NCBI GenBank assembly: GCA_021797825.1
Contig: JAJZZA010000009.1
Span: 1 to 61,528, forward strand
Direction of reading: 5' to 3'
Length of the DNA stretch: 61,528 nucleotides
From: Bacillota bacterium
GTDB lineage: Bacteria; Bacillota; Sulfobacillia; Sulfobacillales; Sulfobacillaceae
Under the pieces are notes generated by a model. The model had not been told where the DNA came from. It worked only from the letters and a program-made list of their open reading frames with translations, and ran no database searches. The position numbers and the translations under genes are program-made. Below are positions 20,769-23,120 of the stretch, in pieces. Within the stretch, counting starts at the first letter, position 1; the number at the start of each line of letters is the position of its first letter.

Positions 20769-21041
20769 TTAATGTTCCGTGCCCTCCGATGGCGTGGGGC
20801 TGACGTCCGGGGCACCGGAGCGGCGAAGCAACTCTTGATTAATCGCACCCAGCACGTCATCGATATCAGCCTGACGCGCTTCCAGATGGCGTTTTAGCGA
20901 TCGAATGGCGAAGTCGTCCATGTGCTTTAACGCATCCGCACGGGGCATCCCGACAAATCCGCGGATGTTCCCGGTGACATTGTTGACCATGCCCTGCACC
21001 CAATCGGCAAACGCGGCCGGGCCGTAGTTCCACTCCGACAT
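20769..21041 (-). CDS. Small conserved-looking protein, function unknown
   Basis: 90 residues from ATG 21041, which has AAAGGAGG 8 bases upstream; the frame extends further but without coding character. It has no Cys and no membrane helix. Residues about 5-35 ('FADWVQGMVNNVTGNIRGFV') and 40-72 ('RSLKRHLEARQADIDDVLGA') look like amphipathic helices, then a Pro/Ser/Glu tail. No family was recognised. An extended -10 promoter lies 47 bases upstream. It is transcribed divergently from the ThyX operon, so the two may share a control region. Confidence 0.7.
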   Translation of the reverse strand: MSEWNYGPAAFADWVQGMVNNVTGNIRGFVGMPRADALKHMDDFAIRSLKRHLEARQADIDDVLGAINQELLRRSGAPDVSPTPSEGTEH

Positions 21042-21087
21042 GTGTCGTCCTCCTTTTCCGATTCCAAGGCTTTTCCGATATGACTCA

Positions 21088-21093
21088 ATTATA
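21088..21093 (-). promoter_or_regulatory. Extended -10 promoter element
   Basis: On the minus strand TGT-TATAAT gives a perfect -10 box with the TGn extension, 47 bases upstream of the 90-residue gene. No TTGACA-like -35 box stands at the right distance, as is usual for extended -10 promoters. Confidence 0.5.
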
Positions 21094-21197
21094 ACAAGAG
21101 TTGTGACGCCTGCGGCGCTTATTCTGCCGCCCCGCCGGCTTAATCCCGCGCGACGCGGAATCTTTCCCAGCAAATTTGGACAAAATTCTCCGAGCGG

Positions 21198-21226
21198 TTG
21201 CGGAAAGTGACAACCTTTGCGATACT
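21198..21226 (+). promoter_or_regulatory. Sigma-A-like promoter of the ThyX operon
   Basis: TTGCGG (21198-21203), a 17-base spacer and GATACT (21221-21226). Transcription would begin near 21233, leaving a leader of about 80 bases before the 109-residue gene. Confidence 0.4.
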
Positions 21227-21311
21227 TTTCTTGCGACACGAATTCTTATTGCCGTGTTTTGTCCCCGTTCTCCGGAGATGAAGCCAGCCTTATTCATTGA
21301 GGGGGGAATCC

Positions 21312-21641
21312 ATGAAACTTGTGCACCATCTGATTGGTCCCCATTTTTGGGTGAAACAGACGCCGGAATGGCACGCCGTCGTTGAAGCCTTTTCCTTGCC
21401 TATGTTTCGCGATGCGGAACGTGATCGCCTCATGCGCTATGTCGATTTAAACAAACGCCGCATAGACTGGGACGCCATTCATCAAGAAGCGCGGGATTTG
21501 TCCACAGAAAAGCGGGTTTTGATTCGAGTGGCACACGCCTTGCACAGCGGTGGCGACTGCCAGTTGTCCGAGATCGGCGCGTTATCGAGCGCCGGGCGCT
21601 CGGCGGCGATTCTCCTGATCGGCCAGCGCTACCGGCAATAA
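21312..21641 (+). CDS. 109-residue protein of unknown function, ThyX operon
   Basis: 109 residues from ATG 21312, preceded by GGGGGGA. No signal peptide or membrane helix. The sequence has a helical, charged character ('FRDAERDRLMRYVDLNKRRI', 'LSTEKRVLIRVAHALHSGGD'). The stop lies 21 bases before the ThyX-like gene, so the two are co-transcribed. The C-terminal part 'CQLSEIGALSSAGRSAAILL' is reminiscent of the small helical subunits or lids seen beside enzymes, but no family was recognised. Confidence 0.75.
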   Translation: MKLVHHLIGPHFWVKQTPEWHAVVEAFSLPMFRDAERDRLMRYVDLNKRRIDWDAIHQEARDLSTEKRVLIRVAHALHSGGDCQLSEIGALSSAGRSAAILLIGQRYRQ

Positions 21642-21662
21642 GACAGGAGCAGGGGGAGCAAA

Positions 21663-23120
21663 GTGGCCCGCATCTATACCCTGAGCAACGTGCCGCCCGA
21701 AGTCAGCGCGTACGGCATGGCCAAATATTCGCGCTCTAGCGCGTCGATGCGTGACACCCTGCTGGAATTGTCGCAACAAAAGGCCGAACAGTTTTTGAAC
21801 ACCTTTTATTTCGCCTATGGCCATGCCTCCATCGCCGACCTGGCGCACGTCGCGCTGGCGGTCGAGGACATTTCCATATTGGCGGCCATGGATGTGGTCG
21901 ACGAACCGCTCTGGGACGGGCAAGAGCGATCCACCCGCTACCAGACGTTTCACGACGCCCCCTATTACCGCCCAGCCGAAGCGCCGCCCGATTTCGACGG
22001 CTTGGCGCGTTCGCTGTTTGCCCAGTATCGGAGCTTAACCGATGACGCCTATGAGGCCTACGCCGACCGCCACCCGAAACCGGCCGCCATGGCGGAGGGC
22101 GTTTACCGCCGAACGCTTCGCGCCCGGGCGTTTGATGTCGCCCGCTATCTGCTGCCGTTAGCCACCCTGACCTCGCTGGGCCAAGTCACCAACGCGCGGG
22201 TGCTCGAGCAGCAAATCGCCCGCCTTTTGGCCTCACCCTGGCCGGAACTGCAAGCCATTGGCGCGGAGATGAAGCAGGCCGCAACCGTCGCCGCGCCGTT
22301 CGACCTCCTAAGCGAACGATTGCAGCGCGCCGGCCTGCGGGTACCAGACGAGGTGCGGGCAGAGCTCGAAACCGGTCCGTCGGTGCCCACTTTGCTGAAA
22401 CATGCCGAGCCGGCCCGGTTCTTGGCCAACGTGCGGACCGCCATGCGTGCCATCGCCGCCGAGGTGTTGGGTTCCTGGCCGGTGGAGCCGCCCGACCTGG
22501 TCCGCTGCCATCGGCCCGGCTCCGACCAAGACACCGCGCTTAGCCTGCTCCTCTATCGCGAGTCGGCATTGCCCTTTGGGCGGGTAGCAGCCGTGGTCGC
22601 CGATCTCCCGCCTGCGGTCAAACGGGAAATTCTGGAGACTGCTTTCCAACAGCGCGGCCCGCATGACGCCTGGCCCAGCGCATTTCGGCAGGCTCCCTTG
22701 CTGTTCGATCTGACGGTGGATATCGGCGCCTTCCGGGACCTCAACCGTCATCGGCGGCTCTTTAAGACGATGCAGGAGATCTCACCCGATCTGGGCTATG
22801 CGGTTCCCGAACCGCTGACCGAATGGGGCCGCGACGCGGGCTACCGCAGCAGACTAGACGCGCACTATGCGAAACTCTCCGCGCTCGCCGCGTCCCTGCA
22901 GCCTTATCTGCTGCCGCTGGCCCACCGGCGGCGCGCGCTCTTTGCCATGGACTGGGCAGAAGCCGCCTATCTGATCGAGCTGCGCTCGAAGTCATCGGGC
23001 CATTTTAGTTACCGCCGGCTAGCAAATGCCATGCATCAGGAACTGACCCGACTTGACCCCGCCCTGGCCCGACACATCCGGGTAACTCCCTACCACGACT
23101 TCAACCCGTTAGAACGGTAG
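21663..23120 (+). CDS. thyX: Tandem-domain ThyX-like (FAD-dependent thymidylate synthase) protein
   Basis: 485 residues, about twice the length of a normal ThyX, from GTG 21663 with AGGAGCAGGGGG upstream. ThyX makes dTMP from dUMP with CH2-THF, NADPH and FAD. Domain 1 (about 1-230) carries 'DEPLWDGQERSTRY' at 80-93, which lines up residue for residue with the ThyX motif RHRxxSxNExSxRY but has DEP in place of RHR. Domain 2 (about 290-485) has 'NRHRRLFKTMQEIS' with RHR at 362-364 but lacks the SxRY end; it also keeps 'ELRSKSSGHFSYRRLANAM' (LR...Q-EIR-like). The halves thus seem complementary. Activity as a thymidylate synthase is inference. Confidence 0.8.
   Translation: MARIYTLSNVPPEVSAYGMAKYSRSSASMRDTLLELSQQKAEQFLNTFYFAYGHASIADLAHVALAVEDISILAAMDVVDEPLWDGQERSTRYQTFHDAPYYRPAEAPPDFDGLARSLFAQYRSLTDDAYEAYADRHPKPAAMAEGVYRRTLRARAFDVARYLLPLATLTSLGQVTNARVLEQQIARLLASPWPELQAIGAEMKQAATVAAPFDLLSERLQRAGLRVPDEVRAELETGPSVPTLLKHAEPARFLANVRTAMRAIAAEVLGSWPVEPPDLVRCHRPGSDQDTALSLLLYRESALPFGRVAAVVADLPPAVKREILETAFQQRGPHDAWPSAFRQAPLLFDLTVDIGAFRDLNRHRRLFKTMQEISPDLGYAVPEPLTEWGRDAGYRSRLDAHYAKLSALAASLQPYLLPLAHRRRALFAMDWAEAAYLIELRSKSSGHFSYRRLANAMHQELTRLDPALARHIRVTPYHDFNPLER

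Follow-up and report, generated by a model that had tools for sequence, protein, structure and literature searches.

The window, a stretch of 61,528 nucleotides from a Bacillota bacterium of the Sulfobacillaceae (contig JAJZZA010000009.1), carries on its forward strand a GTG-initiated gene encoding a protein of 485 amino acids, preceded by a purine-rich, Shine-Dalgarno-like stretch. Two parts of the protein were assigned to the Pfam family PF02511 (Thy1), with an E-value of 2.4e-25 for the protein and 89.9 bits compared with a gathering score of 24.8, and both genomic matches were above the family cut-off. The only other Pfam match was to PF11574, below its cut-off, and the ThyA domain PF00303 was absent. 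The full-length phage family PHROG 36506 ('thymidylate synthase', 491 positions) matched residues 15-468 (E 1.1e-37), while the equivalog cut-off of TIGR02170, a model that describes single-domain ThyX, was not reached (33.3 versus 87.9 bits). The features of the locus are given in Table 1, where the two halves of the protein are referred to as D1 and D2.

Table 1. Features of the tandem ThyX locus (coordinates within the window; residue equivalents refer to ThyX from T. maritima)
Feature	Position	Strand	Basis or remark
Gene of ~110 aa, directly upstream of tandem ThyX	21297..21641	+	Conserved in relative loci
Shine-Dalgarno-like purine-rich stretch AGGAGCAGGGGGAGC, just 5' of tandem ThyX gene	21645..21659	+	Sequence
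Tandem ThyX gene, 485 aa, GTG start	21663..23120	+	ORF, Pfam, full-length relatives
D1, aa 1-241: FAD-phosphate and substrate-loop half, RHR gone	21663..22385	+	Pfam, alignment, fold match
aa 53-56 GHAS (D1)	21819..21830	+	H54 = H53; alignment
aa 80-93 DEPLWDGQERSTRY (D1)	21900..21941	+	DEP where RHR expected; alignment
R161 (D1)	22143..22145	+	= R147; alignment; 104/104 D1
aa 177-179 NAR (D1)	22191..22199	+	N177 = N163; alignment
D2, aa 242-485: RHR and R174 half, substrate loop gone	22386..23117	+	Pfam, alignment, fold match
aa 362-364 RHR (D2)	22746..22754	+	= R78-H79-R80; 103/103 D2
R441 (D2)	22983..22985	+	= R174, dUMP activation; 101/102 D2; alignment

The short gene directly upstream was found in 19 relative loci with 55-66% identity, mostly just upstream of the tandem gene; family searches with its product gave no match, and it is a possible partner of the tandem ThyX. 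A second short neighbour without a Pfam family (20769-21239, reverse strand) is conserved in seven relative loci. The recognised neighbours in the window, an MFS transporter, a HAD hydrolase, a CAAX protease and PrsW, gave no functional hint.

A single-chain AlphaFold2 model of the tandem protein was obtained with a pLDDT of 87 and a pTM of 0.88. Residues 1-249 and 276-482 of the model each matched ThyX structures (Z ~8-11; also seen with Foldseek), while unrelated structures scored Z ≤ 4.9 in the same comparison, and both halves are thus predicted to have the ThyX fold. Model confidence was lowest at residues 50-60, a region containing the conserved GHAS stretch, which in ThyX is the part facing FAD and folate. 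Sequence searches of the PDB gave no match with the tandem protein alone, and with a profile only a match at E ~0.1.

The sequence-only reading had located the remains of the ThyX motif RHRxxSxNExSxRY at residues 80-93, where the E-S-R-Y end is kept and DEP stands in place of RHR, and at residues 362-364, where RHR is kept without the other end; translation and alignment confirmed both the positions and the residues. In order to see these residues in their family context, we placed all D1 and all D2 domains of 104 distinct tandem proteins from Bacillota, Chloroflexota, plasmids and phages, with median pairwise identities of 31% (D1) and 26% (D2), in one alignment with 35 single-domain ThyX sequences, and positions are given in T. 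maritima numbering. Of the sequence behind this numbering, residues 37-201 were verified visually against the PDB chain, the mutated sites of that entry excepted. In D1 of the tandem protein, E88, S90, R92 and Y93 correspond to T. maritima E86, S88, R90 and Y91 and are invariant among the relatives. S56 aligns with T55, the position of M. tuberculosis Ser71, and R179 with R165, the position of M. tuberculosis Arg190, both of which contact the FAD phosphates.

No contiguous ThyX motif was found within one domain: in each of the 103 testable proteins D1 has one portion and D2 the other, and the motif is complete only when the two domains are taken together. The complete R78-H79-R80 triplet occurs in 103/103 D2 versus 0/104 D1 domains, and R78 alone is likewise absent from all 104 D1 domains, although Arg is found at the R80 position in 30 of these. 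Conversely, D1 keeps S88, R90 and Y/F91 without exception (104/104 each), whereas D2 has them in 19/103, 20/103 and 9/100 cases, respectively. The complementary split reaches beyond the ThyX motif, as R147 (104/104 D1 versus 4/101 D2) and the FAD-phosphate Ser at the T55 position (104/104 versus 5/100) are also kept in D1 and not in D2. At R174 the split is not clean; the residue is present in 101/102 D2 domains, and D1 has Arg (69/104) or Lys (23/104) at this position, aligned via a gap of one residue. Arg at the R165 position is found in 87/104 D1 and is not confined to them, occurring in 29/102 D2 domains as well, and H53 is partly kept in both (88/104 and 59/100). Near-universal as it is, with RHR in every testable D2 and the S-x-R-(Y/F) loop in every D1, the complementary loss first noticed in this one protein is not a product of chance. 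The motif losses could in principle be drift in a decaying or non-functional duplicate, which would fit the low score on the canonical TIGR02170 model; however, the reading frame is intact, 80 columns are invariant in an alignment of 33 full-length sequences, the same split recurs in 104 proteins and no second thymidylate synthase was found in the genome. On the conservation data, such decay is already contradicted and appears barely credible.

The retained residues follow the division of labour between subunits in solved ThyX structures. In M. tuberculosis ThyX, subunit A gives RHR (95-97) and Arg199 to one site, subunit B gives Ser71 and Arg190, and subunit C gives Ser105, Arg107 and Tyr108 (PMC6514825), and in the enzyme from PBCV-1 Gln75/Arg182 and Ser88/Gln89 lie on different monomers (PMC3498832). 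Translated to T. maritima numbering, the A set is R78-R80 and R174, the B set T55 and R165, and the C set S88, R90 and Y91. Of these sets, D2 of the tandem proteins retains A, and D1 retains B and C. In a 222-symmetric tetramer, we therefore assign positions A and D to D2 and positions B and C to D1; by the same residue roles, the remaining two 222-symmetric assignments give no complete site.

The two fused and diverged domains would thus be obligate complements in one flavin-dependent thymidylate synthase. D2 would give the RHR triplet, which contacts FAD and, via its first Arg, dUMP, as well as the dUMP-activating Arg (R174). D1 would give the substrate loop (E86/S88/R90/Y91), R147, and the Ser and Arg holding the FAD phosphates. 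Since three subunits build each solved ThyX site, two tandem chains most likely pair to form the working enzyme. This pseudo-tetramer would have two complete sites, each made up of both D1 domains and one D2; the remaining two ancestral sites, those of B and C, would be dismantled, with all or most of each ligand set gone. Oligomeric state, site geometry and chemistry are here deduced from residues and published contacts. The composite site proposed in the sequence-only reading is in this respect only partly upheld: the parts kept in the two domains do match the published roles of different subunits, but a single fused chain is insufficient for one site, as the residue roles call for one D2 and two D1 domains and hence a dimer of chains, not a lone pair. 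A fused complementary ThyX pair, acting as a thymidylate synthase and assembled as a pseudo-tetramer with two composite sites, is in our judgement the best explanation of the data, with a probability of roughly 85%.

Catalysis by D1 or D2 alone, with re-invented residues and a structural or regulatory role for the other domain, has to be considered as D1 holds the whole substrate loop, has Arg or Lys near R174 in 92/104 proteins and, in the closer relatives, has invariant residues of its own (E-P-L-W-D-G-Q). An RHR triplet in 103/103 D2 domains is, however, not what is expected of a purely structural domain, R78 is found in 0/104 D1 domains, and the sets kept in D2 and D1 coincide with the contributions published for subunit A and for subunits B and C, respectively, which makes catalysis by a lone domain improbable. 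As for the dismantled sites of the pseudo-tetramer, the suggestion that they have taken a regulatory role found no support in our data. They might conceivably have turned into an additional, non-catalytic pocket for a ligand, such as an allosteric nucleotide or folate site, but we regard this as unlikely; it is equally doubtful that D1 E-P-L-W-D-G-Q (aa 81-87) and the part of D2 around G446-R451 line a pocket of this kind. If they did, the fused thymidylate synthase would be regulated, which would set it apart from single-domain ThyX.

The distribution of thymidylate synthase genes is consistent with a composite enzyme that makes thymidylate. The sequence-only reading had proposed a search of the host genome for thyA or a single-domain thyX, and in a profile search of this genome (97.5% complete) neither ThyA nor any ThyX other than the tandem gene was found. 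Among 31 genomes of the same family, the tandem gene is present in 24 (in one by a weak, partial match only) and ThyA in five, both genes occur together in none, and two less complete genomes have neither. Strong matches to ThyA (better than 1e-40) or single-domain ThyX (better than ~1e-38) were detected in 0/106 Chloroflexota genomes with the tandem form versus 149/195 others, a difference that, as the Fisher test ignores shared ancestry, is to be read only as 'strongly exclusive'; weak partial PF00303 matches were seen in five of the tandem Chloroflexota genomes. When 24 tandem genomes were checked singly, strong ThyA was found in none and a weak partial match in one; one of the 24 encodes a single-domain ThyX in addition to the tandem protein, and a second tandem-like fragment occurs in one. 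Methylation of dUMP is backed indirectly by this exclusivity of the tandem gene towards ThyA and single-domain ThyX across genomes. Since a thymidine kinase is encoded in the genome and salvage is possible, the argument is limited to de novo synthesis. Neighbouring nucleotide genes are in line with this function: a phage copy of the tandem gene adjoins a dCMP deaminase gene, and a plasmid copy lies near dcd. Judged from gene content and conserved residues, the tandem proteins probably make thymidylate for bacteria without an ordinary thymidylate synthase. As a separate observation, Chloroflexota frames of ~490-600 amino acids (in genomes such as G465, G477, G468 and G706) gave weak partial PF00303 matches within positions 86-256; they possibly encode a divergent ThyA-like protein, and several such genomes have no ThyX match.

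A ThyX-fold flavin enzyme may also have another job, for instance (hydroxy)methylation of another pyrimidine nucleotide. The solved homologues include PolB, a UMP/dUMP methylase, and the ThyX of C. glutamicum, which is dispensable for thymidylate (both according to PDB titles), some tandem copies reside in phages, and the thymidine kinase noted above would also be compatible with such a role. Against this stand the exclusion of ThyA and single-domain ThyX by the tandem gene in 106 Chloroflexota genomes and in the family of the host, strong ThyA in 0/24 and single-domain ThyX in only 1/24 of the singly checked genomes, and the conservation of the dUMP-contacting residues; we give a different function very little credence.

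Relatives are encoded at 35 loci in the genome contigs scanned, and the 32 that could be aligned over their full length are 41-58% identical to the query. Their sources include Sulfobacillus, Tumebacillus, Brevibacillus, other Bacillota and Chloroflexota. The same class and phylum also contain a second tandem group of greater divergence, and a tandem profile detected the tandem form in 106/301 sampled Chloroflexota genomes. Plasmid copies, named 'FAD-dependent thymidylate synthase' in RefSeq, were found in Bacillus, Paenibacillus, Euzebya, Miltoncostaea and Parabacteroides, and phage copies in Microcystis, Vibrio, Microcoleus and Tunturiibacter phages. The genes from Vibrio (L166, L167) and Microcoleus (L165) phages are annotated as hypothetical or 'thymidilate synthase-like'; their tandem ThyX proteins are very divergent, with an identical motif split. 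Two PF02511 matches in a genome do not always mean a tandem protein, and two candidates were rejected: L101 is a single ThyX split by an insertion, and L094 a single ThyX split by an apparent intein. In L094, a 623-residue frame on the reverse strand in another genome of the same class, the intein apparently lies inside the ThyX motif, after RHR. In L095 and L101, both single-domain ThyX proteins, a long insertion separates the two motif ends, and in a Pfam scan such proteins can give the appearance of a genome with two matches. In a tree of 138 domain sequences, including 36 single-domain ThyX, all D1 domains formed one clade and all D2 domains another, each with an ultrafast bootstrap of 100 and spanning both tandem groups. 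As D1 and D2 are each monophyletic, their split is most likely older than the divergence of the two tandem groups; the tree evidence on its origin is moderate, given long branches and a divergent alignment.

With the composite enzyme as the preferred reading, an essential enzyme appears to have gone from identical, interchangeable subunits to a mutually dependent fused pair, a shift seen in bacteria of many kinds as well as in some phages. It would offer a natural test of which subunit gives which ThyX residue, and exemplify how subunits specialise after duplication. If correct, many Chloroflexota and Sulfobacillus-type genomes have an uncharacterised protein as their sole thymidylate synthase, one that searches for a contiguous ThyX motif overlook.

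The architecture itself is known already. Valas and Bourne (2009, PMC3224940) noted a domain-duplicated ThyX, called uncharacterised, in Chloroflexi and in a small number of further species, and the two ThyX domains in one chain found here agree with that description. In the available part of that paper, neither complementary motif loss nor a composite site is reported, and compared with its Chloroflexi and few species, the family is here followed through Bacillota, plasmids and phages. It was the only work on 'domain duplication' of ThyX found in the open-licence literature, where no characterisation of a tandem ThyX was found, although subscription work could be missed; literature on thymidylate metabolism in Asgard archaea and amoeba, and a ThyX review, gave no tandem forms. 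As far as we could find, the complementary loss, its near-universality and the match to subunit roles are undescribed. PHROG 36506 covers the tandem length, but is a phage family model without a functional description of the two halves. PolB and the C. glutamicum ThyX share the fold, but are single-domain and, by their PDB titles, not the needed thymidylate synthase of the cell. In trypanosomatid deoxyhypusine synthase, the active oligomer consists, according to the available part of the source, of an impaired and an inactive paralogue (PMC3663545); this enzyme is unrelated, and its partners are encoded by two separate genes. Among the closest known systems is also ThyX/FDTS itself (PF02511, TIGR02170; T. 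maritima TM0449, M. tuberculosis and PBCV-1), with which the tandem protein has in common the fold of both halves and the residues of one complete FAD/dUMP site, built in ThyX between subunits. It differs in having two diverged domains per chain, each half without part of the site, so that one complete site is expected per chain, compared with four per tetramer of single domains in ThyX.
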